DNA from: a virus
Virus record (IMG/VR): IMGVR_UViG_3300013126_000083
Coordinates: 1 to 39,842 of that record
Direction: 5' to 3' (one strand)
Length of the DNA: 39,842 bases
Part shown: piece by piece, positions 1 through 32,385 of the stretch
Position numbering within the stretch: position 1 is the first letter of the stretch
Layout: each line of letters begins with the position of its first letter
The notes under the pieces: model-generated
Seen by the model: only the letters and a program-made list of their open reading frames with translations
What the model was told of the DNA's origin: nothing
The model's database searches: none
Made by a program: the position numbers and the translations under genes

Positions 1-1228
1 TCCAAGGGTGCGGGCCGTTCTGCACCTTCTTGAAGATGACGCGCCCGCTATTCCGGTTGACGGTCAGCGCAGAAGCCCATGTGCTCCCATTGCCACTGAC
101 CTTGACCGAGAAATCGTCGTTCCCCACCAGCCCCATCTCGGCCCGCCCTGACGCGCCCGATTGGAGCAATAAGCTGGCGGTATCGCCAATCGTGGCCTTG
201 TCGATCTTCAACTGATGCCACGTGCCGTCATAGCCCAGAAGCGTGGCGGCGCTGGCGACGCTGGCGGAGAGACTAGCACTGGTTGCTGATTTCGCCGCCC
301 AGTGGAACGCCGAAAACAGTCCAGGCCACACTTCGACATCTTCCGCCTCTGTGGCCCAAAGCTGCGCCAAATTGGCCTTATCAGCGGCGAGATAGGCACT
401 AATCGAGGCAGCGGTGGCTTTATCAGTGGCGGTGGTGGCACTACCAGCAGCGGCGGTAGCACTACCGGAGGCAGCGGTGGCCTTATCAGTGGCGGTGGTG
501 GCACTACCGGCGGCAGCGGTAGCACTACCAGCAGCGGTGGTAGCACTACCGGCGGACTTAGCCGCATGGTGCAGGGCGGAAAACAGTCCAGGCCACACCT
601 CGACATCTTCTGCCTCTGTGGCCCAAAGCTGCGCCAAATTGGCCTTATCAGCGGCGAGATAGGCGCTAACCGCAGAGGCGGTGGCACTACCAGCGGCGGC
701 GGTGGCATAGCTCTGCGCGGAGGTGATGTCGCCGTAGGTCGGGCCGTTGTCAAACCCGGTCCCGCCCGCGTTCCACACCAGCGTCCTGCCTGCCTCCGCC
801 GTCGGCAGGTCGTCGGGGTACGGCTGTCCGGCGGCGACCTTCAGCGCCCGCCTAGAGAGCCCAAGCACTTGCCGGGCGAAAGATGTCGACTTATCGAGGG
901 CGAGTTCTATTTGCGAAAGCGAGATCGAACTCTGCGTCGAGAAGGGCCGTTCCTGCGACGCGGTTATGTTCGGCTCAATCGTCATCGTCGCACCCGCGGG
1001 CAAAGTCGCGCCAGACACTAGCGTAATCGAACCGCCCCCGGCGTTGCCCGCTCCCGATACCGTGTAGTGCGTCGTACGCGCCAGTTCGTCAGTTGTGCCG
1101 TCTGCGTTCTGCCGCAGCACCGTCAGTTCGGCGTCCTCGTAGATTTTGAAGTCGTAATCGAACACGGTAGTGACGCCGTCGCCGACGTACGGCCCGGATA
1201 CAAGCGCCTCGCTGCTGGAAACTGTCAT
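1..1228 (-). CDS. Tail fibre protein, T7-fibre-like N terminus (C-terminal part cut by window edge)
   Basis: The frame is open from an ATG at 1228 to the window edge, giving 409 visible residues with no stop. The first ~75 residues (MTVSSSEALVSGPY, then VFDYDFKIYEDAELTV and an HYTVSG strand) match the N-terminal virion-anchoring domain of T7-type podovirus tail fibres, which attaches the fibre to the tail. Residues ~185-310 are Ala/Ser/Thr/Gly-rich and repetitive: a segment containing AYLAADKANLAQLWATEAED occurs twice (about residues 189-218 and 278-306), separated by GSATAA/GSATTA-type units; this looks like an extended shaft. The host-binding C terminus lies outside the window. The gene starts two bases beyond the stop of the giant protein at 1230 and is the last visible gene of the late operon. 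The role is inferred from the N-terminal domain and position. Confidence 0.85.
   Translation of the reverse strand, partial: MTVSSSEALVSGPYVGDGVTTVFDYDFKIYEDAELTVLRQNADGTTDELARTTHYTVSGAGNAGGGSITLVSGATLPAGATMTIEPNITASQERPFSTQSSISLSQIELALDKSTSFARQVLGLSRRALKVAAGQPYPDDLPTAEAGRTLVWNAGGTGFDNGPTYGDITSAQSYATAAAGSATASAVSAYLAADKANLAQLWATEAEDVEVWPGLFSALHHAAKSAGSATTAAGSATAAAGSATTATDKATAASGSATAAAGSATTATDKATAASISAYLAADKANLAQLWATEAEDVEVWPGLFSAFHWAAKSATSASLSASVASAATLLGYDGTWHQLKIDKATIGDTASLLLQSGASGRAEMGLVGNDDFSVKVSGNGSTWASALTVNRNSGRVIFKKVQNGPHPW
312..664. repeat. Direct repeats inside the tail fibre gene
   Basis: An 86-base segment at 312-397 recurs at 579-664 with only a few differences; the offset is 267 bases, exactly 89 codons. 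Between the copies are shorter repeats: a unit starting at 408 recurs at 471 (offset 63 bases, 21 codons), itself made of 18-base GSATAA-type subunits. All offsets are multiples of three, so the repeats extend the fibre shaft without breaking the frame. This is a coding repeat, not a CRISPR array. Confidence 0.9.
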
Positions 1229-1229
1229 G

Positions 1230-4200
1230 TTATCGCCGCCCCATGATAAACTCGACAGGCGTCACGTTCTCGCCCTTCTCTAGCCTATACCACGCATCGA
1301 CCACCCGGTTCAACTGTCCTGACGGCAAGCCAGTGGCGGTACCGACGGCGCTGCTAAGCGCTTTGAACAGCGGCATGTCCGCCTCGCCCTGCGCCGCTTG
1401 CACGAAAGGCTTCGCCAGCGTCTCGACGACCGAGCCGTAGGCACCCGCCTCGTACCCGGACAAGGCCGAGCCGAAGTCGCGGATCGCGGGCACCGTCGAC
1501 ATCATCGACAACAACGTCTCACGCGCGAGGAACGTCCTCCACTTACGGTCGTCGTCCTCGCCCATGCCCGGCAGAGTTCCCTTGATTAAGTTATAAAGGA
1601 TCGCCTCGACCGTGAAGAGCATGGTCATTTCGACGGCCCCCCTCACCGCAGCTTGCAGGGTCTTCAAGTTCACCCCAGTCATGTCCCTGCGTGTGCGCCC
1701 ATAGACCTCATAGGCGATGTTGCCCTTCGCGAACATGTACGACCCCAGCGCCGTGAAGAGCCGTACGAAGCCGTTCTGCCGCGTATCCCGCGACAGCGTG
1801 CCGCGCTCGAAAGCCGAGCGATCCGAGAACACGCCGGACGCCTGCGCGCGCGCGACCATACGATCCGCGTACGCGCGCGCCTTCGCCTCGTCGCCGAACC
1901 TCCTCATACCTTGGTTGTGCGCAGCATACCATGTCGGCACATCGACCCCGTAGAACTGCACCTTCTGCATCAGCCAGAGACCGACGCGCGCCAGCCCCTG
2001 CTGGAAGCGCTTATAGCGCGACGCTGCGGGGCCGACCACGATGTCGCCTAGAATGTCGTTTATATCCCGGTTGAACGTGCTCTCGCGTTCGCGCATGAAC
2101 GACGAGAACTTGACCACCTCCCGCGGGGCACGGAGCGGGTTGGCGGCGTAGATACCGTACCCGATCGCCATGTCTTTCGCCCCCACCGTGACGATAGACT
2201 GGGAGACGCCCGTTAGCTGGATCGCCACCGTGCCCAAATTGAACGCGAGTTTCGACAGGGTGAAGCCGTTCTTCGCGCGCAGCGCCAGCCGCCCGAACAC
2301 GCCGCCAGCAGCGATCTGCCCGGTGGCGGTGTCCTGAAGCCACATCTCTAGCGCTTGGTGATCCTTCAGCAAGCCCTTGCGCTCGAACGCCCCGCGTACG
2401 CGCGGGTCTTGCAGCACTCGCCAAGAGTTCGCCACAGCCTCGGAGAACGCGAGGTCGTGTATCACCTGCCCGACGTGCTGGTGCAGCACCTCCATGCCGA
2501 GTTGCAGCACGCGACCGCCCGAGCCCCGCGCGCGTTCTTCCAGATGACCGTGACGGGTCTGCGCCTTGCCGAAGCGCCCGGCCATCATCTGCTTCTGCAC
2601 TTCGGCCAGTTCCTCAGCGGCCACCAGTCCCGAGACATCGCCTCGGTACTTGATCGGGTAGTAGCCGCCCGCACGCGGGCCGAACGGCGTCTCGACCTCA
2701 GACGCCAGCACCTTCTTTGGCACGACGCCGGTCAGCCGCCGTTCGCGCGCCTCGATCAGCGGCCAGAAGGTGTTCACGTAGTCCCACACGCTCTGCACGA
2801 AGTCCCAGTCGCGCAGGTCAAGCTGTTGCTTGATAAAGTCCACCTGCGAGGCGTTGAAGCCGCTACCGCTGTCTGTGTCCATCAGGCGCGCGAGGTTGTC
2901 GGCGTTGCCCATATTCAGAGCCGCTGAGATCAAGTCCCATTTCGTAAACGCGCCGCCGAGTTCCTTGTAGTGCTTGCGCGTAGCCATCCGCCGCTGCTCG
3001 GCTTTCGAGTACACGCTATACAGCCCTTCCAGCGCGCGCGCCGCTTTTTCGCGCTCGACCTGCGCCCAGTTCGCGGCTGCGTCGATCGGCGCTTTTATGG
3101 CCTCGTATGCAGCACCGACGTCGAACCCGCCAATCTTGCGCAGCAGGGTATCGGCGTTCAACAGCAGGTTCGCGAACTCGCGCAGACCGCCACGCAATTT
3201 CTCGCCCGGCGTTGCGACGCGGTTAGGCGCATGGTCCTTCAGGTTCGTCTCGATCTCTGCCACAACGCCGTCGACAACCGCGGCCAACTCGCGCTCGCTC
3301 TGCGCATCGCGTAGCTTCTTCTTCATCCGCGCTGTGTGCTCGATGTTGCGCAGACTGTCGAATACGCCTTCCAGTTCCGCCAACAGCAGGGTCTTGTACG
3401 GACGTCGCTTCGCCTCGTCAAGCACGTAGGCAGGGATCGCGAGTTCGTTCTCACGGCCCGCTGCCTTCATCATCTCGACGTACTTCAGCAGACCGGAGCG
3501 CCGTTGCGCCTGCCGCAGCGATACCGCCTTTCGAAAGTCGTACGAGGTGAGAATGTCGTCGATTGCTTCCAGATACTCGCCCGCCAGCGCGCTGCGCGTC
3601 GACTTTGACTTCAGCTTCGCGACGTGACTTTCAACCTTCGCCAGCACCTCGTCCGCCGCCTTACTCTCGACGTAAAGCTGATAGTTCAGCAACTGCTCGC
3701 GCTTAGCCGCGTAAGCCTCGTCCATCTGCCCCCGCGCCACAGCCTGCATCGCGCGCTCGCCCGCCCGCCGTTCCGCTGCGAGATACGCCCCGCTGCGAAC
3801 TGCCTTGTGAACCGGCATCGCGCGGATCGCCGCACGCGCGACCTCGGCGGCTTGGCTTCGCGTCGTCACTTGGCCGATCTTGGCTGCCTTGCCGATCGCA
3901 CGAAGTTCCGCCGCGAGCAACTGCCCGCGCTTCTCACCGTGCAGCGCCGCCACCGCCTTCGCCTCGATAGACCCGTCGACCAGCGGGTCCCCGTGACGCT
4001 TGCGCATTTCAGCGTCTGTACGCGCCTTGATCTCGTCCGCCGCGCGAGGCGACGACACTAGGTCTTGCAGCATCTCGCTGCCTGAGCGGTAGCCGAACCA
4101 CCCCGCCACGTCATCAGCGCTGAGCCCCGTATCTTTCGCCCACAGCGGTCGCGAGCCCCGCGGTAGCGCCGTCAGCATCTCTTCGCCGTACTCGTCGATT

Positions 4201-7200
4201 AGCATCTGCCTGTCGAGCCGTAGATCGCCAGCCAGTTGCTCAGGCGCGTCGCCACCCAGCCATCTGGCGTTGCCCAGCCACTCGCGTACGCGGTTCGCGG
4301 GCTTCGCGTTGACCGACGCCCGGATACCCGCCTCTACCTCGGCTCGCTCCGCCTTGAACTCCGCCGTACGCGCGCGCCGAAGCGGTGCCATGATGGTCCG
4401 CAGCATCTCCTGCCGCGTCTCGTCCTGCGCCTCGACAGACAGTTTCACCAGCTTCTGATAGTCCTCTTCCGCGATCCCGAGTTGCGCTGCGTTCTCGGCG
4501 ACCAGCTTGTCAAAGCCGTTCTCGGTCGATGCTGCGGCGATCTCTTCGTCGGTCGCAAGCATGCGATCGAACACGCCGCGCAGTTCGTCATTGATCGGAA
4601 CACCCAGCCCGCGAGCCCGTCGGTACACGCTCAGCAGCCACGCGCTAAACGCCTCGAAGGCAGCGCGCAACGCGTTCGACGGTGCCTTGCCTTCGAGCAA
4701 GTACGCCTCGTACGCCCGCGCCCACGTCTCCTGCAAGCCGACGTTGACCTTGCGATCCGTTTCCAGATCGCCAGTCGTGCCGTCGCGCAGGTACGAAGCG
4801 ACCAGCGCTTCGGAAACGCCGCCGTCCTTGGCAATCAGGTCGATATTCTGACCCCACCACGCAAGGACCGTCTCCCAGTCCGCCCGCATTCCTTCAGGCG
4901 CGTCGCCCTTGGCGATGATGTCTTGCAGCACGTGCAGATAGTAGTGCCCACTCTCGTGCAGAAACGTCGAGAGATCAGCCTTCTGATACAGCGTCACCAG
5001 CGGAGCCCGCCCCGGTTCGGTCGGCAGCAGGATCGACCCACGCGCGCCATCCGGGCGCTTCTGGAACAACGGCTGCGCCTCGCTCGCGGTGGCGCGCATC
5101 TCGGGCGTGATCTCGACCACCCACACCGGATCACTCTCCGGGCGCAGTTCCGCGGGCATAATCTGGAAGAACTGCTTAGGCGTTATGACCGACCTGACGA
5201 GCAAGCTAGACAGCAGCGTTTCCGCGCTCTTCTCAGGATTATGGAGGTCCGCTTGCGTCGACCGCGCGACAGCGAGGCGACCCTTTGTCAGGCCGCGCAT
5301 GTACTCTAGCCGCTCCACCTCGTTCGGCGGGGCACCGGTCGCGCGCGCGCTGGCGAGGCTCTCTTCGAGACCCGCCAAAGTGGCCTCTAAGTTCTGTATC
5401 GAGTCCTGCACCTGCACGGCGCGGCGCATACGCTCGTCGAACATTTCCTTTTCCAAGCTCTCCCATTGCTCCGCTGTCAGCAGCGGGGCACCGGTCGTTA
5501 GATACGGCGTTTCCTTCAGCAAACGGATCGTGTTCTGGAACCCGTATTGCGACGCCGCCAGCATGGCGGTGTTCAAGTCCGAGAGCGGCCCAACCTCAGG
5601 CAGTGCACGATCGAGCCGCACTTGTGAGCCGAAGCGCCGTGCGAACTTGTCGACGAAACGCTTGATCTGCTGGTCGTAGGCAATCTTGTAGCCATCGCCG
5701 CCGACCACGATGTTCTGCCCTGAGATCAAGCCCTCGGGCTCGGCGAGCACGCGCTGCGCCATCGTCCCGCCGAGCAGTTCCGACAGCGACTTACCGACCA
5801 CTTCACTCTCAGGGATGCGACCACCTTCGCGCGACTTCTCAAGGATCACGTTGCTCTCATCAACGAGGAACCAGTCAGTGCCGTTGATCCCCGTCAGTTT
5901 GATCTCGCGAGCAATGCCCGCACTACCGTCCTCGCGGGTGTACTCGACCCGCCCGAAGGGGTACCACGTGATCTCGTGCAGCACGTTCTGCACCGCGCCG
6001 GACCAGCGCCGCGCCTGCATATACGCGGGCGTCCACGCCAGATAATCTGCGCCCTCTTCCGCGGCGGTCTTCAGCAGCTTCTTCATCATCAGCGCGTAGT
6101 ACGCTTCGCCCTCGAAAGGTGTGATCGGCTGCCTCGGCATCGATACCGTCATCTCGTCGCTGATACTATCCTGTTCTCTCGAAATCTCGTCGCGCCGGTC
6201 TTGGTTGCGCAAAAACTCGGCAATCGGCTCATACCCACTTTCGCCGGGCCGCGGCAACTCGTCCGCCAGCCGCCCCAGTAGCGCGGAATACAGCGAGTCA
6301 GGTCCTATCGTGGCGCGAACGGGAAGACCTTCTCGCTTATCGATCACGTCGCGAAGCACCTCGGGTGCCGAGTGAGACGACAACGCGTTCATCGTGCGGC
6401 CAGACGATGAACGCGGCATTTCCAGATTATGCCCTTCAAGCATCGCAGAGGCGATCACGTTGTAGCGCGCGTGCAGCGCTGCTCTCTTGCGAGACAACTC
6501 CAATCTTCTCGCGCTCAGAACTTGCATCTTCGCCACATCCGCCGCGGTCGGCGCTGGCCCATTATCGCGCCAGTACGACCCAAGATCGGACTGGACTTCT
6601 TCGACGAACAACACGTTCTTCCCGTCGGCACTTTTGCGATAGTCAAACCGCGCGTGCACGACGATATTCTCGACGTCATAGTGCGCACTTTTAACGAACG
6701 GCGACAAATCTAAAGCGGCGTTCGGCCCCGCGCGGTTCAGGTTCGGCACCGTCAGCAGCACCTCGCGGTAGTCGTACCCTCCCTTCTCTGTGTGCTTATC
6801 CCAAACAGTTTTACCGCGTGCTTCGGGGCCGTCGTACGCGCGCGTATAGTGGTCGCGGATCGCTTCTATAACGTCGTTCTGCGAGCGATAGTTATCGCCT
6901 TCCCAGTAGTAACCGTCATTCTCGCGTGTAATGACCGTGCTTTCCTCGGACCCGTCCGGTTGCGTGATCGTAACAGGGTACTCGTAGATAGGGTCTTCAT
7001 AGTACGCCTGCACAGCCATATCGCGCGCGCGGTTGAGTAGCGCCTCTTTCTCGTCATCCGAAACATCGTCCGGCCCGAAATCGCCGCCGGGGTCGCTCTC
7101 GTTCATCTCATTGACGCGCTCGTCGATGAGGTCTGGCAGGTAGTTCTCTCGCGCCGTCTGCTCGATCCAGTCGTCATCGTACGCTCGCTCCTCGCCGGGG

Positions 7201-10200
7201 TCGACCTCGACCGTGAACTCCCCGAACACCGCATCTTCGCCCCCGAGCGTGACCGGCGTGATCGTCACCTCATTGCGCCGCAAGAAGTCCACCACCGTCT
7301 CGCGGGCGACCTGCCCCTCTTGCGTGTCCAGCCAAGCGAGCACACCGGACCAGTCGATCTCCGCCTTCTTGATCCCCGGCAGTCGCTGGATGATCGACTT
7401 CCAGTCCTTCGCGGACGCCTTCGCTTGCTTGGCGTTCGCGACATCGCGGGTCAGCGCGCTGAAAAAGTCCGGCGTTGCCCCCGACTGGAACAACTCCACC
7501 GTACGGTCATCCCGCACCGACACAGGCTCGACCGGCTCGAACAGCGCCGCCGCCGCGCCCTGCGGCGCGTCCATGACTATGTAACCCTTAAACCCGCGCT
7601 CAACGAGCCTCTCTTCGAGCCAGCCTATCCGCTGACGCGCAGGCACGTCGTCCGGTATGGCGTCGACCAGCCCCTCGGGATCGCGCGTCAGGTCATAGAG
7701 CGCCTTCGCGGGCACGCGAACCTCATGCCGGTACGGTCCAAGGCTCTCCTTGCGGTAGCCGCCGGGTTTGCCGACGCTAACGCCGAAGAACGCCTTCTTC
7801 GGCCCCCGCACATTGCGCTCGGCACCCCTAAGGGGCCCCGTCCCCGCAAACGCCGGGTCCACCGTGCCACGCGCTGCGTCGGACCAATGTGTCAGTGTTA
7901 CTGTCCCATCTTCGTTAACCGGCACCTTCGGCTTCGCGCTGTCGTCGCGCGCTTCCCAAACCCGGCGTGGCGTTTTCGACGTCGCATAGTCGCTCTTCAG
8001 GCTCGGCAGCTTTTCCGCAAAGCCGCTCACGGCGGCGTAGCTGTCCGACGCCGCGAAGCCCTTGAAGTTCCCGCTATCCCAAATCTGGAACACGTAGCGG
8101 AAGTTATCGAGTAGCACGCGTTCCATCTCGGCGACCGAGACCTGCAACGCGGTCATGCCCTCGACGGCGTCGCCACCGGTTTGAAGCACCTCACGCGCTT
8201 TAGCCGCGAGGGTCTCCTGATCGTAGTACTGCGCTTTGTACCGATCCTTTTTAGCCTCGTTCGCGTTGTACTCTTCGGCGGGCCCGCCCAGCTTCTCGAA
8301 GGTCAGGAACAGCCCGCCCGGCACCAGCAACTCTTTCGCGCGTCGCACGTGGGCACCGCGGGTGTTCGAGATAAACTGGAACACCATCGCTTCGTGCACG
8401 ATGTCGAACTTCTTGCCCTTCGGGTCAAAGAACGGGATCGCCGTCCCGTCGTCCTCGGTCCACGCCACCGTACCCGCATCCTCGGCAGACCCGTAGGCCG
8501 ACAGGTCAAACACGACCCCCTCCACCTGCGGCTTGCTCTCGAACGTCGTCTGCATCGCTACGTTAGGGTCGAGCGCTACCGCAGTCGCACCGGGGTTACG
8601 CTGCACCACGGCTTTCGCCATCGCCCCCTCGGACGCACCGATGTCAAGTAGCGCGCCGGTCCCGATCGTCTCCGAGATCACGAAACCAACGGCGTCCTGC
8701 ATCTCGCGATAGCCCGGTATCGACGTGCGGATATGGTCTTCAAAATTGCCAGAGAAAGGCTCGCGCTCTTTGGCAAAATCCTTGACCTCTTGCGGCAGGT
8801 CGATCACCGGAACATATGCGTCGAGCCGCTGCGGCTGCTGCCGCGCGCCCGACGTAACGTCCGAGAAGAACTTGGTGAAGTGCCGCCCGTCACCAGCCAT
8901 GTCCCCCGAGAGCACCTCGTCGCGGTTCTGGTACAGGGTCTGCGCGGCAAAGCCTGCCGACCACGTAGTCCCATCGCCCATCGTCGAATAGAAGTCACGC
9001 GCCTTAGCGGCGTCGCCTGTGACGAGATCGTTCAAATCCAGCGGGATCGTCGGCGAACCATCCATGAACACAAGACCCTCGCGGGTCAGCACGCTCTCTT
9101 GCCCGTATTTGCGGCCCAACTCGACCACGGTGTCTCGATCCGCGAAGATCATGTACGACACGCCGTCGCTCTGGCCCTTGTAGACACCTTCCATCTTGTG
9201 GAACGCGATCCCACGCGCCTGCAACTCTGCTTCCAGCGCCGCGTTTTGCGCCGCGTCTGTCTCAGCGCCACGCGTCGCCGTCACCACGCCCCAACCGGGA
9301 CGCCGCAGGAAGTCAGCAGTCACGCCTGCGCCAAGATCACCCGGCTGCGCCGGACGCAGCGTTTCACCGCCCAACTGGTTCAACAGCACCGGCCCCGCCG
9401 CGGGGCCGTACATCTGCTCGACGGCGAGTTCGAGATCAGCAGGCTCTGCAACTTCGAGATCAAGACTAGCCGCTTCCGCCGCCGCGCGTATCGCCTTGAT
9501 GAGTTTGCCCTCGCCTTCGCGCTGCTCGACCGGCGCGCGCACGCGATCCAGAACTTCTGCGGTCACGCGCGGTGTTTCGACCGCGACGGAACTCTCTAGC
9601 GCGCCCTGCACCTGCGCCAACGGGTAGCGCTTCAGGAACTCCTTGAGGTCAATCCCCAAGCGCTGCGCCATTGTACGCGCGAACGCGACCGCTTGCAGCG
9701 CTTCCTTCTCAGCAACGTCACTGGTGCGCCCCGCGCGGCGCAACGCCGAGACGAGTTCGACGCGCGCTTCGTCCGCCACGCGTTCAAGGTCAGTCTGCCC
9801 GCTCGTCGCCTTGTCGGCTGCCTCCTGCGCCTGCGTCGACAATTCCGAGAGCCGGGCTTGGTACGCCTTCAACTCCGTCGCGCTCATCCTATCCGGTGCC
9901 GTACGTATATGCCCGCGCAGCCGCTCGTCGAACCGCGTTCCGACGATGTCGGCTGCGTACGACGCTGTTGGTATCTCGACCGCACCGCCGTTGTCGCGCG
10001 CCCGCCGGTACGCTTCAATGTCCACACCGTCAACCGCCGCCAGAAACTGCTCCGCGGTTACGCCACCGGGGTCGCTCTGGAACAACCTATCAAGCGTCTG
10101 CGCATCAACGTACAGGCTTTCCACGGGGCCATCTTTTGTCAGCGTCGCAACGGCGTCGCGGTAGCGCTCCGGCACCTTCGCGCGTATCGTGCTGTCTTTA

Positions 10201-11687
10201 GCTGACGTAGTCAGCGCGTTAAAGAACGCTCGATCCTGCGCAACCCCGCGCTGCTCGCGCAAGTATCGACCGCTCACCCCCACGACTTCGATCGGAGACG
10301 CGACAAACTCCGCGAACACCTCGGCCATAATCTCGACCATGTTCACGTCTTGGCCCGACGCCAACTCGCCCAACAACTCGCCGCTGCCGCCCATCACGCC
10401 CTGCACGAGCGCCTGAAGGATAAGGTTCCCCGCCGGGTTTTTCGCCAACACCCGCCCTGCCACGCCGACGGACGCGGCGTCCAAGAGGCCAACCGTGGCA
10501 CCGTAGGCGAACGAGCGGTCACGCATGTTCCGCCGCACCGCGGGATCGTTGACAAACGCCGCCCGCTGCCCGGGATCGCGCAGGTCATACCCTGCCTCGC
10601 GCACGAACTGGTCATACGCCGAGCGCTCGCTCACCTCGTACGACGTCGCTCCCAGCACGGCTGCGCCAAGAACCGGGTTGCGCGTCAACCCTGTCACCAG
10701 CGCGCTTGCGATCAAGGCCGGCGCGCTATCGAGCGCGACGCCGACTAGCCACTCTGTCATCGCGACCGGTTCCGCCGCGGCGAGCGCCGCGATAGCAGAC
10801 ATCTGCGGCCCAACCCCTTTAATCTTGCTGACGTCGGCCAACGCTGCGTTCATGCGCGTTACGCGCTCCGACGTTCCGTACGTTCTCTCGATCCGTCGAG
10901 CGTTCGCGTCCCGCGCTGCGATGGCCTGCTCGAACGCGTCGGACAGCAGCGCCTCTGACGCCTTCATCGTGTCTTCGCTGACAAAGGTCATACGAGACGA
11001 GACATACCGCGCGAGCGCTGACCACGGCGCCAGCGTTGCCGCGCCGACCGGCGACCACCGCTTCTGCTCATCGGCCAATACCTCGGTAAACGGACGCGCT
11101 CGATCGGCGCGGCGATCTTGCAACTCCGCCAGAGCGTCTTCTGCATTCTTGGCGATGCGGCTGTACCCCAGCGTGTCGGTCACTAGGCGGTCCGCGCCTC
11201 TCTCGAACTGTGAGAGAAGACCCGACAGTCCAGACAGATTTTGTAGGTCTGATTGCGCCAGCGCCGCGTTGATAGGGTCCCTCGCGATCCATCCCGCCAG
11301 CCGCGACGACGACATCAACTGCGCCCGCCGCGCTTGCGCGTCGACCCGCCGGGTCAGTTCCGAGGTCGCGCTAGTCAGCAGGTCCGGCGGAATCACCAAA
11401 CCCCGCTGCCGCGCTTCCGCCGAACGCGCTACGCCCGCGACGGCGTCGCCTACGGGAAAAGCCTGCTCCATCGCAAGCGCCGCCCGCTCCGCCGCCTGCG
11501 CGGCGCGCTGCTCGAAGTAAGACTGGTACGCGCTCGCGGCGGGACTCGCCTGCGGCTGCGTGGACTGCGCCTGAAGCGCCGCGCTGGGGCTCGCCTGCGA
11601 CTGCGTGGACTGCGCTTGAAGCGCCGCGCTGAGACCAGTCTTCTGCGCCTCGAACCACTGAAGATACGCCGCTCGTTCGTCCGCCAT
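1230..11687 (-). CDS. Giant ejected virion / large polyvalent protein, 3485 residues
   Basis: This single gene takes about a quarter of the window. Visible parts in order: a duplicated 15-residue Ala/Gln/Ser unit (20-34, 35-49); a hydrophobic stretch around 312-350; a methyltransferase-like glycine motif LLDIGASEGAM (about 1013-1023) followed by PGGLFLTFE near 1120; an LTHWSDA motif (H1267) of the ADP-ribosyltransferase-like domains found in polyvalent proteins; FVEEVQSD near 1695-1701 and AAEEGADYLAWT near 1865, a pair typical of phage polyvalent proteins; a zinc-peptidase-like HESGH at 2244-2248; a long charged helical region; and hydrophobic segments near 3135-3180 and 3355 in a C-terminal domain common to such proteins. 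Proteins of this class are packaged and injected with the genome to protect or establish it. Its place between the internal virion proteins and the fibre fits ejection. Its ATG directly follows the TAG of the gene upstream. Enzyme activities are inferred from motifs only. Confidence 0.8.
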   Translation of the reverse strand: MADERAAYLQWFEAQKTGLSAALQAQSTQSQASPSAALQAQSTQPQASPAASAYQSYFEQRAAQAAERAALAMEQAFPVGDAVAGVARSAEARQRGLVIPPDLLTSATSELTRRVDAQARRAQLMSSSRLAGWIARDPINAALAQSDLQNLSGLSGLLSQFERGADRLVTDTLGYSRIAKNAEDALAELQDRRADRARPFTEVLADEQKRWSPVGAATLAPWSALARYVSSRMTFVSEDTMKASEALLSDAFEQAIAARDANARRIERTYGTSERVTRMNAALADVSKIKGVGPQMSAIAALAAAEPVAMTEWLVGVALDSAPALIASALVTGLTRNPVLGAAVLGATSYEVSERSAYDQFVREAGYDLRDPGQRAAFVNDPAVRRNMRDRSFAYGATVGLLDAASVGVAGRVLAKNPAGNLILQALVQGVMGGSGELLGELASGQDVNMVEIMAEVFAEFVASPIEVVGVSGRYLREQRGVAQDRAFFNALTTSAKDSTIRAKVPERYRDAVATLTKDGPVESLYVDAQTLDRLFQSDPGGVTAEQFLAAVDGVDIEAYRRARDNGGAVEIPTASYAADIVGTRFDERLRGHIRTAPDRMSATELKAYQARLSELSTQAQEAADKATSGQTDLERVADEARVELVSALRRAGRTSDVAEKEALQAVAFARTMAQRLGIDLKEFLKRYPLAQVQGALESSVAVETPRVTAEVLDRVRAPVEQREGEGKLIKAIRAAAEAASLDLEVAEPADLELAVEQMYGPAAGPVLLNQLGGETLRPAQPGDLGAGVTADFLRRPGWGVVTATRGAETDAAQNAALEAELQARGIAFHKMEGVYKGQSDGVSYMIFADRDTVVELGRKYGQESVLTREGLVFMDGSPTIPLDLNDLVTGDAAKARDFYSTMGDGTTWSAGFAAQTLYQNRDEVLSGDMAGDGRHFTKFFSDVTSGARQQPQRLDAYVPVIDLPQEVKDFAKEREPFSGNFEDHIRTSIPGYREMQDAVGFVISETIGTGALLDIGASEGAMAKAVVQRNPGATAVALDPNVAMQTTFESKPQVEGVVFDLSAYGSAEDAGTVAWTEDDGTAIPFFDPKGKKFDIVHEAMVFQFISNTRGAHVRRAKELLVPGGLFLTFEKLGGPAEEYNANEAKKDRYKAQYYDQETLAAKAREVLQTGGDAVEGMTALQVSVAEMERVLLDNFRYVFQIWDSGNFKGFAASDSYAAVSGFAEKLPSLKSDYATSKTPRRVWEARDDSAKPKVPVNEDGTVTLTHWSDAARGTVDPAFAGTGPLRGAERNVRGPKKAFFGVSVGKPGGYRKESLGPYRHEVRVPAKALYDLTRDPEGLVDAIPDDVPARQRIGWLEERLVERGFKGYIVMDAPQGAAAALFEPVEPVSVRDDRTVELFQSGATPDFFSALTRDVANAKQAKASAKDWKSIIQRLPGIKKAEIDWSGVLAWLDTQEGQVARETVVDFLRRNEVTITPVTLGGEDAVFGEFTVEVDPGEERAYDDDWIEQTARENYLPDLIDERVNEMNESDPGGDFGPDDVSDDEKEALLNRARDMAVQAYYEDPIYEYPVTITQPDGSEESTVITRENDGYYWEGDNYRSQNDVIEAIRDHYTRAYDGPEARGKTVWDKHTEKGGYDYREVLLTVPNLNRAGPNAALDLSPFVKSAHYDVENIVVHARFDYRKSADGKNVLFVEEVQSDLGSYWRDNGPAPTAADVAKMQVLSARRLELSRKRAALHARYNVIASAMLEGHNLEMPRSSSGRTMNALSSHSAPEVLRDVIDKREGLPVRATIGPDSLYSALLGRLADELPRPGESGYEPIAEFLRNQDRRDEISREQDSISDEMTVSMPRQPITPFEGEAYYALMMKKLLKTAAEEGADYLAWTPAYMQARRWSGAVQNVLHEITWYPFGRVEYTREDGSAGIAREIKLTGINGTDWFLVDESNVILEKSREGGRIPESEVVGKSLSELLGGTMAQRVLAEPEGLISGQNIVVGGDGYKIAYDQQIKRFVDKFARRFGSQVRLDRALPEVGPLSDLNTAMLAASQYGFQNTIRLLKETPYLTTGAPLLTAEQWESLEKEMFDERMRRAVQVQDSIQNLEATLAGLEESLASARATGAPPNEVERLEYMRGLTKGRLAVARSTQADLHNPEKSAETLLSSLLVRSVITPKQFFQIMPAELRPESDPVWVVEITPEMRATASEAQPLFQKRPDGARGSILLPTEPGRAPLVTLYQKADLSTFLHESGHYYLHVLQDIIAKGDAPEGMRADWETVLAWWGQNIDLIAKDGGVSEALVASYLRDGTTGDLETDRKVNVGLQETWARAYEAYLLEGKAPSNALRAAFEAFSAWLLSVYRRARGLGVPINDELRGVFDRMLATDEEIAAASTENGFDKLVAENAAQLGIAEEDYQKLVKLSVEAQDETRQEMLRTIMAPLRRARTAEFKAERAEVEAGIRASVNAKPANRVREWLGNARWLGGDAPEQLAGDLRLDRQMLIDEYGEEMLTALPRGSRPLWAKDTGLSADDVAGWFGYRSGSEMLQDLVSSPRAADEIKARTDAEMRKRHGDPLVDGSIEAKAVAALHGEKRGQLLAAELRAIGKAAKIGQVTTRSQAAEVARAAIRAMPVHKAVRSGAYLAAERRAGERAMQAVARGQMDEAYAAKREQLLNYQLYVESKAADEVLAKVESHVAKLKSKSTRSALAGEYLEAIDDILTSYDFRKAVSLRQAQRRSGLLKYVEMMKAAGRENELAIPAYVLDEAKRRPYKTLLLAELEGVFDSLRNIEHTARMKKKLRDAQSERELAAVVDGVVAEIETNLKDHAPNRVATPGEKLRGGLREFANLLLNADTLLRKIGGFDVGAAYEAIKAPIDAAANWAQVEREKAARALEGLYSVYSKAEQRRMATRKHYKELGGAFTKWDLISAALNMGNADNLARLMDTDSGSGFNASQVDFIKQQLDLRDWDFVQSVWDYVNTFWPLIEARERRLTGVVPKKVLASEVETPFGPRAGGYYPIKYRGDVSGLVAAEELAEVQKQMMAGRFGKAQTRHGHLEERARGSGGRVLQLGMEVLHQHVGQVIHDLAFSEAVANSWRVLQDPRVRGAFERKGLLKDHQALEMWLQDTATGQIAAGGVFGRLALRAKNGFTLSKLAFNLGTVAIQLTGVSQSIVTVGAKDMAIGYGIYAANPLRAPREVVKFSSFMRERESTFNRDINDILGDIVVGPAASRYKRFQQGLARVGLWLMQKVQFYGVDVPTWYAAHNQGMRRFGDEAKARAYADRMVARAQASGVFSDRSAFERGTLSRDTRQNGFVRLFTALGSYMFAKGNIAYEVYGRTRRDMTGVNLKTLQAAVRGAVEMTMLFTVEAILYNLIKGTLPGMGEDDDRKWRTFLARETLLSMMSTVPAIRDFGSALSGYEAGAYGSVVETLAKPFVQAAQGEADMPLFKALSSAVGTATGLPSGQLNRVVDAWYRLEKGENVTPVEFIMGRR
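11542..11631. repeat. 45-base tandem duplication at the start of the giant protein gene
   Basis: Two copies of a 45-base unit lie head to tail, with a few substitutions between them. They encode SAALQAQSTQSQASP and SAALQAQSTQPQASP (residues 20-34 and 35-49). The frame is preserved. The unit is a flexible, low-complexity spacer near the N terminus. Confidence 0.88.
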
Positions 11688-26125: not shown

Positions 26126-26256
26126 TTTTCATCGCTCCCACCGGCGGAACCTGCCGGACCACTGAACGATACGCCTAACTATCTGAACGCGCAAGGTGTT
26201 TCCGCCCTCGGAGCCGGGGGAAGTGGTGTGCGATGCGCGCTTTAACGTGCGCTTTC

Positions 26257-26341
26257 AGCTATGCTCTTGTTTTCATTCGCGTATCTCGCGCGTCGGGCTA
26301 GGGGACATGAGCGCCTCCAAGCTATGTGTAGGTTTTCATTC
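26257..26341. repeat. Pair of direct repeats 63 bases apart
   Basis: AGCTATG at 26257-26263 and GTTTTCATTC at 26269-26278 recur at 26320-26326 and 26332-26341 with identical internal spacing. The blocks between differ. Two copies with fixed spacing suggest two binding sites or a duplicated promoter segment upstream of the late operon. Confidence 0.75.
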
Positions 26342-26364
26342 AGATATATCGCACCCCGAACTAC

Positions 26365-26653
26365 GGGTCGTGTCCCAGCCAAAGGCACGTGTCCCAGACT
26401 TTCGCTTGATTTCATTGGATATTCTGGCGGGTGGGACATCGGGACAGCAGAGTTCCCATATATACTATAAATTAGTATAACAGGTACCCTAAAATTGGTT
26501 AATTTTTCTCACCAAATTTTTATCTTCTTTTCACGAAAGTATAAAGTATAGTATCCCAATGTCCCGATTCGTAGAAAATTCAATTAAATCAAGCGAAAGT
26601 CTGGGACACGCGCTCGAAAAGGCACGCGTCCCGGCCTGTTCGGGACACGACCC
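26365..26653. repeat. Large interrupted inverted repeat around an AT-rich core
   Basis: Bases 26388-26412 are the exact reverse complement of 26586-26610 (25 bases). Towards the centre the match continues imperfectly for about 17 more bases. Further out, GGGTCGTGTCCC (26365-26376) matches GGGACACGACCC (26642-26653), although the right arm carries about 20 extra bases between the blocks. The intervening 173 bases are strongly AT-rich. GGGACA or its complement occurs eight times across the region and just left of it. Confidence 0.85.
26474..26502 (-). promoter_or_regulatory. Leftward sigma-70-like promoter, probable late-operon promoter
   Basis: On the minus strand TTAACC (26502-26497) is followed after 17 bases by TATACT (26479-26474), five of six bases of the -10 consensus. 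The spacer contains GGTACC, the box that also marks the other promoters in this window, so the site could be controlled by the same factor. It points towards the terminase and structural genes, about 350 bases ahead of the first one. Confidence 0.55.
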
Positions 26654-26691
26654 AAAGTAGCTGGTGCGTCAGATAGTGCGTAGAGACGCGC

Positions 26692-26843
26692 CGGAAAGTG
26701 TACGTGCGCCGAAAAGTGGCTCCGAAAAGTGTATCAGCATCTCTGACCTGCATAAAAATGTTCGAAAAGTGCAAAGTCCCAAACCACTAGATGCGCCGAA
26801 AAATGCGTCACGAAAACGACACATCAGCGCGCGAAAACGACAC
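26692..26843. repeat. Iteron-like CGAAAAGTG / CGAAAACGAC repeats
   Basis: CGAAAAGTG occurs at 26710, 26723 and 26763; GGAAAGTG at 26693 and CGAAAAATG at 26797 are near matches; CGAAAACGACA occurs at 26811 and 26832. All have the same orientation. CGAAAG(T) also appears in the inverted repeat arms. The cluster lies between the AT-rich core and the rightward promoter, where initiator-binding iterons or regulator sites would be expected. Confidence 0.7.
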
Positions 26844-26882
26844 GCCGAAACCGCCGAGGGCGCAGGCGGTCAAAATAGGTAC

Positions 26883-26920
26883 TTGACAAGCGCCCCAGCG
26901 CGGTATAGGTACCTAGTACG
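26883..26920 (+). promoter_or_regulatory. Rightward promoter with TAGGTACCTA palindrome (early operon)
   Basis: A perfect -35 TTGACA (26883-26888) is followed at 15 bases by TATAGG (26904-26909). The ten-base palindrome TAGGTACCTA (26906-26915) overlaps the -10 area, and another TAGGTAC (26876-26882) abuts the -35. TACGAC (26917-26922) follows. The arrangement recurs at 27881, with AGGTAC again 18 bases from TTGACA. It drives the SprT-like gene 26 bases downstream; the palindrome looks like an operator. Confidence 0.62.
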
Positions 26921-26945
26921 ACATCATCAACCAATGGAGACGAAC

Positions 26946-27638
26946 ATGGCAAACCGTATTCTCTCGACCACTACTACCGCCCCGGTGAGCATTCCCTACT
27001 CCGCGCGCATCGACAACAGTAACGGTGCCAAGGTGTTGTATGACACGCTGTACGCGGCCTTCGATCACTTCAACGCCGCGCTGTTCGACAGCAGGCTCGA
27101 CGCGGTAATGCTGGTGCTGCACCGCAAGCGTAACGCTCACGGCTACTTCTGGAAAGACGTGTGGAGTAGAGACGGGAGCGCCGTCGTCCTGAGCGAGATC
27201 GCCGTGAACCCGGAAGCGATGGGCCGCGAGCCGAAGGAAGTGCTTTCGACACTGGTGCATGAAATGGTGCACCACGAACAACACATGTTCGGCAAGCCGT
27301 CCAAGTCCGGGCACAACGCCGAGTGGTGCGAGTGGATGGAGCGGATTGGACTAAACCCGATCGGCGTCGGCAACTGCGATGGCAAGCGCTCGGGTCGCCA
27401 CTTCTCGCACACGGTCGTTTCCGGGGGTGCCTTTGACGTCGCGGCGGATGCGTTCCTTGCGGAGCACGACGGCGCGCTTGGGCTGTGCTCGAAGGCGGCG
27501 CAAACGGCGAAGAAGCAAGACCCCTCGAAGGTCAAGTTCACCTGCCCGGAGTGCGGCGCGAACGCGTGGGGAAAGGTCGGCTTGGCCCTCGTATGCGGTT
27601 GCTGCGAGCAGCGCATGCTGTCAAAGTATCTCGCATGA
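26946..27638 (+). CDS. SprT-like zinc metalloprotease
   Basis: A 230-residue protein. I start it at the ATG at 26946, which has GGAG seven bases upstream and follows the promoter; the frame stays open further upstream but that DNA is the repeat region. The SprT/Spartan-type core is clear: FDHFNAALFDSRLDAVML, then the active site HEMVHHEQ (H105, E106, H109) and HNAEW (H123) as third zinc ligand. A C-terminal zinc ribbon follows (CPEC at 200-203, CGCC at 217-220). Members of this family cleave DNA-bound or crosslinked proteins in cells; phage versions are common but their targets are not known. It is the first gene of the rightward early operon. Confidence 0.9.
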   Translation: MANRILSTTTTAPVSIPYSARIDNSNGAKVLYDTLYAAFDHFNAALFDSRLDAVMLVLHRKRNAHGYFWKDVWSRDGSAVVLSEIAVNPEAMGREPKEVLSTLVHEMVHHEQHMFGKPSKSGHNAEWCEWMERIGLNPIGVGNCDGKRSGRHFSHTVVSGGAFDVAADAFLAEHDGALGLCSKAAQTAKKQDPSKVKFTCPECGANAWGKVGLALVCGCCEQRMLSKYLA

Positions 27639-29842: not shown

Positions 29843-32281
29843 TCAGGCTTCCTTCAGCCCGGCGCGCAAGGCCACCAGTTTCGTCGGGGCGGTGCTGTCC
29901 ATCTGGCGCATGCGATCGTACTGCGTAGCGCGCTCGTCTGCGGTCAGGCCGGTAAACGCGCGGGCGGCGTCTTCGTCGCGAACCAGCACGGTCATCTTGA
30001 CAGTGCGCTTCCGGTCGATGTACAGGCGACCGTGTCGCGGCCAGCGCGTTCTCAGGCGATCGGTCGCCTGCCTGCGCCATTGCGGATAGTCGTCCCGAAG
30101 GTCGCCGCGCACGAGGGCGTTCGACACCCGATCGAGGGCGACGTCGAGGGTAGTCCAGTCATAGGGCATGTTTTCGAGAACGCTGTCGACGATCTCGTCG
30201 ATCTCGGTTATGTTCGCTTCTTGCATCTGCTCTTTTCCACGGAAGTCGGGAGCTACGTGCATGTTGAACCCGGTAACGTCGCGCTCGTCTAGCCACGTCG
30301 CGACGCAACTGGCGAACCGCGGGTTCATCGTCGGATTACGCTCGGCGTTCAGACGACGCATCAGGTCTGGCTTATTCGCCAGCGGGATCGAGTTGTTCGT
30401 GAGAACGGTCAAGCGCCTGTCGCCGCGCGGGATCGGCACCGCGTTGTCGTGGTTCGTGGCGAGCAGGAACGAGGCGTAGACCCAGTCCTGATAGTTCGGT
30501 AGGGTCTTGCGGATGATGTCCATGCGCCGGGGTTTCGGGTCGATCCGCTCCTTCAGCTTCTCGTACGCCTTGCGACGACGCCATGTCATCGCTGTACCCT
30601 CATCTCCGTCAGGCAGCACCTCGTCGGTGGTGACGAACAAGGCACCGGCCATCCAGTCAGTGTACTGTCCCTGCGTGGCGTTATTCATCAGCATGTCCGC
30701 CGACACGCTCTTGACATAGCGGCTGCCGAACACCGAACCGAGGATTTCAAACAGCGAGCCCCGGCCAACTCCGAACGACGAGGCGTACATGATGACACCA
30801 ACGCCGGGCGTGAGCGGGTTTTGCTTCTTGTACGCCAGCCAGTTCTTGAACCATTCGCGCTCTTCCTCGTCTGGCAAAAGGTGGTCCAGAAAGTCTTCCC
30901 AAAGCGCGACGTATCCGGCGCGTTCCGCCGGGTCTTCGACGCGCTCGTGCGCGGGTGCTACGTAGCTGTTGATCGCGCGATCGCCGTCGCGCATGAAGAT
31001 ACCCGGCGGCTTGTCGGGCATGAAGCGATAGCCGTCAACATCCTGCCGCTGCGAGTGCTTCACCCACGCATCGACCGGGTTGATCACGACGGTACCGCCG
31101 CGCGGCCCGTGGCGCTCGTAGGCGTACTGTGTCATCGTCAAGCGCAGGTTCGTGAGGCTCATACCCAACTCTTCGCCACGGTATACCGGCAGGCATTGAC
31201 TGTAGCGGGACCCGCACCACGCCCATTCGTCGAGCAGCTTGAATACCATGTCCTGAAACGACGCGGGGGCGTCGTGATAGGTGTCGTGGTCGAACTCGAA
31301 GCCGTGGTCTTGCAGCTTCGCGCGCAGGTCGCTGATCTTGTCGCTCAAGCTACGCGCGCGGTCGATCAGGTCGGCGGGCAGGTGCCGCGTCCAGTTTGCT
31401 GTTTCGAGCACGTTCACCGCGCCCTCGTGATCCACGCTTATCAGGCAGCGAGTACGGTTTCGGAATTGCGGGTCGCCCATCCAGCTTGCCGAGCAGCGAG
31501 CATCGCGTGAGGTGGACGCGTAGTCGAGCAACTGGTCGAGGGATCGCGTGATCCCGTCGAGGCAGTCGAAGCGTGTGGTCGGCAGCAGATCGTACGCGGT
31601 AGCGGTACCGCTTTCGCCCGCTCGCGACAATTTGACGCGGGGCCAGCCGCCGCTTTCGAGTTCTTCGCTGGCGATCTGCGCGATCGTCAGCACCGCGGCC
31701 TTCGGTAGCACGGGCAGCGCGTTAAGCCGCACGTCGGCGGGACTTTCATCGCCGTCCCAGCGATAAGCGACAGCGAACGAGTTGCCGTCCTTCGCCATCG
31801 TGTGCGCACCGAACGCCCCGATCTGGCGCGGGTGGCCGCCGCCAAAAGCCTCTAGCCTATGTGTGGGTACGTCGTCCGCTTCCGGGTCTTGCCCCGGCTT
31901 CACGTACGATGTCGAAAAGATCACGCTGAAGGGTTCGTCGGTGCGACAAACCCACATTTCCTTGGCCCCCTTGCCGTAGCGTACCAGCGCTTCTCGCAGT
32001 TGTGGGAACTGCCCGGCTGCGCGGTTCCAGATACGCTTGACCATTGTCGCGTCATCGACGTCTATGTCGATCGCGCACAGGCCGTGCTCGACGCGTAGCC
32101 CCGTCGCTTGGTAGACTAGCTTGCGCCCCCAGCGCTCGATCTCTTCGACGGTAGGCTGCACCTTGTTCCAACCCTTCAGGAAGCAGCGTTTGTCGTGGTT
32201 CGGAAGCGGGGTGTATCCGTTGTCGAAGGCCGCTAGTCGGAATGCGGTCTGCGCGGCGGCGTTGTCGTGTCTGAAGCTCAT
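29843..32281 (-). CDS. Primase / SF3-type helicase, replication protein (DUF5906-like)
   Basis: I choose the ATG at 32281 (MSFRHDNAAAQTAF, 812 residues), where the family-like sequence starts and AAGAGA lies upstream; an in-frame ATG at 32347 would add 22 residues with no ribosome site. The N-terminal ~220 residues look like a primase-polymerase-type domain (NGYTPLPNHDKRCFLKGWNK, HGLCAIDIDVDD with the acidic pair). After a linker comes a D5/SF3-like ATPase: the P-loop region is ASSFGVGRGSLFEIL (about 500-514), in which the usual lysine is R507; FVTTDEVLPDGDEG is a Walker B-like motif and FLLATNHDNAVPI a sensor-like segment. It would prime and unwind DNA at the fork. It is the last gene of the leftward replication operon. 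Confidence 0.83.
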   Translation of the reverse strand: MSFRHDNAAAQTAFRLAAFDNGYTPLPNHDKRCFLKGWNKVQPTVEEIERWGRKLVYQATGLRVEHGLCAIDIDVDDATMVKRIWNRAAGQFPQLREALVRYGKGAKEMWVCRTDEPFSVIFSTSYVKPGQDPEADDVPTHRLEAFGGGHPRQIGAFGAHTMAKDGNSFAVAYRWDGDESPADVRLNALPVLPKAAVLTIAQIASEELESGGWPRVKLSRAGESGTATAYDLLPTTRFDCLDGITRSLDQLLDYASTSRDARCSASWMGDPQFRNRTRCLISVDHEGAVNVLETANWTRHLPADLIDRARSLSDKISDLRAKLQDHGFEFDHDTYHDAPASFQDMVFKLLDEWAWCGSRYSQCLPVYRGEELGMSLTNLRLTMTQYAYERHGPRGGTVVINPVDAWVKHSQRQDVDGYRFMPDKPPGIFMRDGDRAINSYVAPAHERVEDPAERAGYVALWEDFLDHLLPDEEEREWFKNWLAYKKQNPLTPGVGVIMYASSFGVGRGSLFEILGSVFGSRYVKSVSADMLMNNATQGQYTDWMAGALFVTTDEVLPDGDEGTAMTWRRRKAYEKLKERIDPKPRRMDIIRKTLPNYQDWVYASFLLATNHDNAVPIPRGDRRLTVLTNNSIPLANKPDLMRRLNAERNPTMNPRFASCVATWLDERDVTGFNMHVAPDFRGKEQMQEANITEIDEIVDSVLENMPYDWTTLDVALDRVSNALVRGDLRDDYPQWRRQATDRLRTRWPRHGRLYIDRKRTVKMTVLVRDEDAARAFTGLTADERATQYDRMRQMDSTAPTKLVALRAGLKEA

Positions 32282-32385
32282 TATATTTCTCTTGTGTTTA
32301 GCTGCGATCTGTGTACTAGATGCAGCGTCTGGAAAGGCATCTCTCATCGGTCGGTCGCTAGGGCCGCGGCGGAAACGTCGCGGCT
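32282..32385. other. 104-base gap before the primase gene
   Basis: The gap holds the possible longer N terminus of the primase. I see no convincing promoter, terminator or GGTACC box, so the primase gene is probably read from the upstream operon promoter. Confidence 0.4.

Follow-up and report, generated by a model that had tools for sequence, protein, structure and literature searches.

The window analyzed here is the whole of a 39,842-base (39.8-kb) virus record, whose PHROG matches identify a podovirus-like tailed phage. Matches on its left side are to internal virion proteins, a tail protein, the head-tail connector, and the large and small terminase (TerL and TerS), and those on its right side to PrimPol, helicase, endonuclease, exonuclease, and DNA polymerase. 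Between the terminase and early genes lies an 820-bp non-coding stretch (26126–26945), flanked on the minus strand by a 137-aa gene plus terS/terL and on the plus strand by an SprT-like gene that begins at 26946. This stretch holds an array of short repeated boxes around an AT-rich core, on the 3' side of the PrimPol gene, the end of which is 3.2 kb away with other genes in between. No close relatives at the DNA level were found among phage records, and the nearest named phages are Nsp-JY18 and Mel-JY33 (TerL 59%, PrimPol 35%, and SprT 49% identical). A minus-strand gene at 1230–11687 encodes 3,485 residues; the protein is related to a PHROG without an assigned function, and its Mel-JY33 relative carries the annotation of a lysin with a crystallin motif. 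The hosts in the names of the Mel-JY33 and Nsp-JY18 records (L026–L030), Microcystis and Nostoc, look doubtful: GC is about 67%, and most of the nearest terminase relatives among bacterial genomes are alphaproteobacterial. The features of the array are as follows.

26350–26668: whole mirrored element, proposed replication origin (self reverse-complement alignment, fold)
26302–26307, plus strand: outlying GGGACA box (exact match)
26371–26376, minus strand: left distal box, TGTCCC (exact match)
26385–26425: left arm of the main inverted repeat (41 nt, 90% complementary to 26573–26613)
26390–26395, minus strand: left reversed box, 43 bp outside the left doublet (exact match; 43/44-bp spacing conserved)
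26433–26446, plus strand: left inner doublet GGGACAtcGGGACA, boxes 8 bp apart (exact matches; 8-bp doublets conserved)
26447–26551: AT-rich core, proposed DNA-unwinding element (AT content)
26552–26565, minus strand: right inner doublet TATCCCaaTGTCCC, first box with one mismatch (box matches)
26573–26613: right arm of the main inverted repeat (pairs with 26385–26425)
26603–26608, plus strand: right reversed box, 43 bp outside the right doublet (exact match; spacing conserved)
26627–26632, minus strand: variant box CGTCCC (sequence)
26642–26647, plus strand: right distal box (exact match)

An earlier note on this DNA had listed eight GGGACA/TGTCCC boxes, at 26302, 26371, 26390, 26433, 26441, 26560, 26603, and 26642, and a variant, CGTCCC, at 26627; the eight are exact matches and the variant is present, each where the note had placed it. 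The excess over chance that it had claimed holds as well, with 8 copies against 0.27 expected in the 820-bp intergenic stretch by dinucleotide shuffling and no more than 2 in any shuffle. The word is not equally dense elsewhere: the 39,842 bases contain 20 copies against 16.4 ± 4.0 expected, and the 12 copies outside the cluster are therefore at chance level. Eight of the 20 fall within 346 bp (binomial p 4e-12; a crude correction for the choice of word and window leaves about 9e-7, still significant). The eight occurrences are not independent, as most of the boxes sit in the arms of one inverted repeat. When all six-base words are counted in 350-bp stretches across the window, GGGACA ranks joint first with 8 copies; the words that tie with it (CGCCGC, CAGCGG, and AGCGCG) are GC-rich, lie at other places, and are commoner window-wide, at 58 to 180 copies versus 20. 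In a scan for boxes flanking an AT-rich core, the array likewise ranks best in the window (score 8, next 4). Two near-boxes, at 26552 and 26627, accompany the exact ones, and the first, TATCCCA, is a ninth box with one mismatch that fills the right-hand doublet mirroring the left one.

The imperfect inverted repeat is centered near 26,499–26,509 and extends to an outer arm pair (26350–26376/26642–26668) that is 78% complementary. When the 820-bp region is aligned with its own reverse complement, the score is 186, against at most 96 for shuffles, and the single-strand fold over 26340–26680 has a z of –10.6 against shuffles. At 75% AT versus 37% overall, the core includes the 100-bp stretch richest in AT anywhere in the window. 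A cumulative GC-skew minimum near 27,000 fits an origin here but also tracks gene direction. At the core center lie TTGGTTA (26495–26501) and TTTGGTGA reversed (26509–26516). We take TTTGGTTA to be the recognition site of NrS-1 polymerase.

Relatives were reached through the neighboring SprT, terminase, and PrimPol genes; single-protein scans with SprT or PrimPol returned none, and alignments were required. A common layout emerged in which two 8-bp doublets face each other across a core of about 110–130 bp, with a reversed box 43–44 bp outside, and in which the box word differs from phage to phage (TGGGACA, TGTGACA, GTGGACA, TTGTGTC, and CTCAACA). L031, reached by the SprT alignment, has at least seven GGGACA boxes flanking a 72% AT core in the equivalent position, directly adjoining terS. 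The TerL alignment brought in L073, with GGGACA boxes in the same place (GGGACActGGGACA - core - TGTCCCagTGTCCC), and a second phage, L070. The layout of the window recurs with TGTGACA as the box in L071, GTGGACA in L076/L077, TTGTGTC in L091, and ACCCGGGTCC in Nsp-JY18 and Mel-JY33 (Nsp and Mel below), whose arrays, too, coincide with the highest AT content in the sequence examined. The PrimPol gene is followed immediately at its 3' end by the array in Nsp, Mel, L091, L297, L300, L301, and L302. Arrays were seen in L166 and L066 too, both outside the PrimPol association counts below.

The symmetry is clearest in L071, a near-perfect dyad with boxes, relative to the core center, at +(–165) +(–157) +(–136) –(–113) +(–69) +(–61) in its left half and –(57) –(65) +(109) –(132) –(153) –(161) in its right half, where the leading sign gives the strand; the inner part of this geometry is common to L073 and the window. 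A reversed box lies 43–44 bp outside the doublet in the window (43, 43), L073, L071, L301, and L298, and 44–45 bp outside it in L091. When the same number of boxes was placed at random in 2000 runs, opposite-strand pairs at 43–44 bp (10 observed) averaged 1.95 with a maximum of 8, and same-strand pairs at 8 bp (13 observed) averaged 0.98 with a maximum of 6, a significance that is only indicative because the spacing was first noticed by eye and L071 supplies several of the pairs. The 118–122-bp span by itself has no significance (7 versus 3.9, maximum 12). The array is a real, conserved, mirrored iteron array. The earlier note had suggested a cluster of protein-binding sites symmetric around the AT core; the sharing of spacing and orientation by phages with differing box words supports this well and makes the boxes putative binding sites.

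Which gene accompanies the array was addressed with two sets of records. Across 25 records, a PrimPol profile matched in the array phages L032/L073, L069/L071, L091, and L085 (helicase part only in the last), in L033, and weakly in L102 (a helicase match); 19 records were without it. In Nsp and Mel, a PrimPol gene is annotated. The terminase relatives of about 40–48 kb without a clear array lack PrimPol, with L102 as the one weak exception. When boxes around an AT core were scored genome-wide, the array came first in the window (8), L032 (8), L069 (12), L085 (9), L091 (14), and Nsp (10); that of Mel was missed because it lies at the end of a linear record. PrimPol-negative records scored 4 to 6, except for the fragment L107 (10), and L102 scored 7 at another place, with no array by terS. 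L033, also a fragment, has PrimPol and no clear array. The PrimPol-negative L107 has dense repeats that recur elsewhere in its contig, and its GCGCAGGA repeats were disregarded as likely interspersed palindromes. Inverted GCGCAGGA/TCCTGCGC units occur there at more than one place, including about 5139–5480 (the contig is also L240), like REP-type palindromes.

The second set came from a scan with PrimPol only, not selected for arrays, which fetched L297, L298, L300, L301, L302, and L303. Significant word clusters were present in L298, L300, L301, and L302, compared with none of 17 PrimPol-negative terminase-relative controls at p ≤ 0.01 (Fisher's exact p about 0.002, for stretches hand-placed around the PrimPol 3' end in the fetched loci). 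In L297, CACAAC boxes are seen by eye and the word-count test gives p 0.12; in L303, the array is unclear. By these comparisons of sequence, the arrays track the AEP-PrimPol/SF3-helicase gene rather than the terminase.

The gene in question and its putative DNA-binding part are located as follows.

29843–32347, minus strand: 834-aa AEP PrimPol/SF3 helicase (DUF5906), proposed initiator (Pfam DUF5906; NrS-1 profile match)
29981–30205, minus strand: predicted C-terminal winged helix, residues about 715–789, proposed box reader (AlphaFold2 model)

A profile of the C-terminal half of the 834-aa protein matches the C-terminal region of NrS-1 polymerase (6k9c/6k9e) at E 7e-18. An AlphaFold2 model of residues 455–834, built from nine sequences (mean pLDDT 87), places after the helicase an H-E-H-H-E-E succession at residues about 715–789, which is the winged-helix order; an earlier model of the full 834 aa from four sequences had a pLDDT of 47 and was not used. 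In structure comparison, the closest folds were the NrS-1 CTR (Z 23.9) and SaPI5 PriRep1 (Z 17.3; 13.9 for 7pds, its complex with dsDNA), followed by vaccinia D5 (Z 16.8), with papillomavirus E1 (Z 11.8) and SV40 large T antigen (Z 10.4) lower. The N-terminal part appears to be an AEP PrimPol: it has a PHROG primase match and D-x-D residues conserved in the alignment, and it aligns with the annotated primase/polymerase of Nsp/Mel. In the C-terminus, the window and L032, which share a box, are 46% identical, and each is 33 or 32% identical to L069, a correlation with the box word that is not specific to this region, because the middle region (200–430) follows the box word too. The PrimPol domain shows no same-box preference (58/60/58). 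Enc34-like phages have 25–27% PrimPol identity.

The earlier note had put forward 87-residue and 137-residue products as candidate binders. The 137-residue products have no Pfam match, the one adjacent to the array has no PHROG match, and in L031, a relative with the same box, the array abuts terS with no 137-residue gene between them. The 834-residue PrimPol-helicase is the better candidate, and we lean, with some reserve, toward its being the direct binder of the boxes.

The boxes, their mirrored geometry, its conservation with other words, the PrimPol association, and the predicted helicase and winged-helix fold together form the basis for reading the mirrored iteron array around the AT-rich core as the replication origin of this phage, which we consider likely. 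A mechanism can be outlined on this footing. PrimPol-helicase subunits would bind the GGGACA boxes through the C-terminal winged helix, and the mirrored doublets would flank the AT-rich core with a pair of helicase rings that face each other. The two rings would melt the core, the PrimPol part would prime the exposed strands, and two forks would depart in opposite directions.

The position of the array invites two other explanations. It might be a packaging site (pac or cos), at which the small terminase, encoded beside the array, binds the boxes to begin packaging; the array does lie close upstream of terS in the window, L031, L073, L071, and L091, a common place for such sites. However, arrays are missing from equally similar terminase relatives without PrimPol, L076/L077 keep a related box (GTGGACA) and the core spacing with a small terminase that is not detectably related, L298 has an array yet a very different large terminase, and the array of Nsp-JY18 lies beside PrimPol, about 2.1 kb and five genes away from terS. 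These observations make packaging an improbable function. Alternatively, the boxes could form an operator cluster on which a regulator controls divergent late (left) and early (right) transcription. The array occupies a divergent intergenic region with weak promoter-like sites (3 versus 0.8 expected), of which two lie within the core or on its border, but a dyad with an AT-rich core of about 110–130 bp is unusual for operators, in Nsp, Mel, L091, L301, and L302 the array lies 3' of PrimPol rather than between early and late promoters that diverge, and no regulator gene was found to go with it. An operator cluster is accordingly as unlikely as a packaging site; a double role, in which the origin also serves regulation, is possible.

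Two further explanations start from the inverted repeat. It could be read as a stem-loop, a hairpin or cruciform origin of the kind suggested for the plasmid pRN1 and the phage BIP-1. The fold of the window element does greatly outscore its shuffles, as given above, and stem-loops have been proposed 3' of AEP-SF3-winged-helix replication genes, phages included (PMC4234260). With the boxes masked, however, the arms are more complementary than in any shuffle for the window, L091, and narrowly L071 and L076, but not for L073, L301, L298, L297, or L300, and the constant feature is boxes and spacing, not a long stem; a hairpin origin is therefore very unlikely. The remnant of a small MITE-like mobile element with inverted ends, suggested by the 41-nt arms and by TCAGATA just beyond both ends, is scarcely credible and largely refuted by the geometry conserved in relatives, where the equivalent position has this layout built from a different sequence, and no copy of the arm turned up in bacterial genomes (an arm 20-mer has zero matches in 84,980 of them) or, beyond a single chance-level match of a 17-mer to unrelated coding sequence, in viral contigs.

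Read as a replication origin, the array most resembles those of PICI/SaPI satellites. In EcCICFT073, SaPIbov1, and SaPI5, an AT-rich melting region is bordered on both sides by a set of short iterons. The replication gene, with the origin on its 3' side, encodes an SF3/D5-type helicase, often with an AEP primase, and the C-terminal domain reads the iterons (PMC6092414, PMC7581432). This layout was found in "no other known bacterial replicon" (PMC6092414). Here, too, the array flanks an AT-rich core and the gene encodes an SF3 helicase with an apparent AEP primase; the modeled protein, the proposed SF3/D5 initiator, has a predicted C-terminal DNA-binding domain and folds that match SaPI5 PriRep1 and vaccinia D5. 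In contrast, the carriers are tailed phages that encode head, tail, and DNA polymerase proteins themselves: a satellite has no virion genes of its own, and the window has head-tail connector, tail, internal virion, and terminase genes. The boxes also differ in their strict mirror geometry, with 8-bp doublets and a reversed box 43–44 bp outside. The element is best read, by analogy, as one that would work like a PICI/SaPI origin in a carrier that is not a PICI.

Other primase-helicase systems share fewer of these properties. The helicase region is a relative of NrS-1 polymerase in sequence and fold (E 7e-18, Z 23.9), both being single-protein PrimPols with an SF3 ring and an SF3 region of the NrS-1 CTR kind. 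NrS-1, however, has an 8-nt recognition sequence in two copies at the genome center, the suggested origin, rather than an iteron array (PMC7102993), and no winged helix is described for it, its Tail domain being called a novel fold. The alpha protein of P4 is a primase-helicase whose C-terminal winged helix binds the origin repeats (ori/crr) (PMC4234260), an arrangement proposed here too, but alpha has a bacterial-type (Toprim, DnaG-like) primase and the 834-aa protein appears to be an AEP PrimPol. In pRN1 and the BPP-1-like BIP-1, AEP primase, SF3 helicase, and winged helix are likewise combined, with a putative origin 3' of the gene; a stem-loop is proposed there and no iterons are reported (PMC4234260), whereas iterons are the constant feature of the arrays described here.

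Because layout and spacing are kept in relatives though the box word changes, origin and initiator are suggested to evolve together. Whether these arrays make up a widespread class of tailed-phage origin, undescribed in the open-access literature, with a strongly selected layout and a box word that changes with the C-terminal domain of the initiator, is close to an even call that we place slightly on the doubtful side. Such a class may share ancestry with PICI origins. If true, it would provide a natural set of mutually exclusive origin–initiator pairs, and changing words on a constant scaffold would be ready pairs for probing DNA recognition by double-hexamer initiators. Among PrimPol-helicase phages, even the origin of NrS-1 is only suggested; the origin proposed here has a precise and simple geometry, recognizable without knowing the box word. 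It would also mean that free-living phages share an origin layout described as unique to PICI satellites, a point relevant to the source of satellite replicons.

Further repeats lie to the right of the array. CGAAAA occurs seven times at 26615–26843 of the window, on a single strand and in CGAAAAGTG and CGAAAACGACAC forms, and could represent further iterons or regulator sites. Upstream of the early genes, AGGTACTTGAC and AGGTACCT occur together in the window (26877–26914), L031 (about 5081–5108), and L070 (about 987–1012, minus strand), separated by 19, 9, and 3 bases, respectively. As a palindrome, AGGTACCT may mark an operator of an early promoter; GGTACC is also found inside the AT core of the window and of L031.
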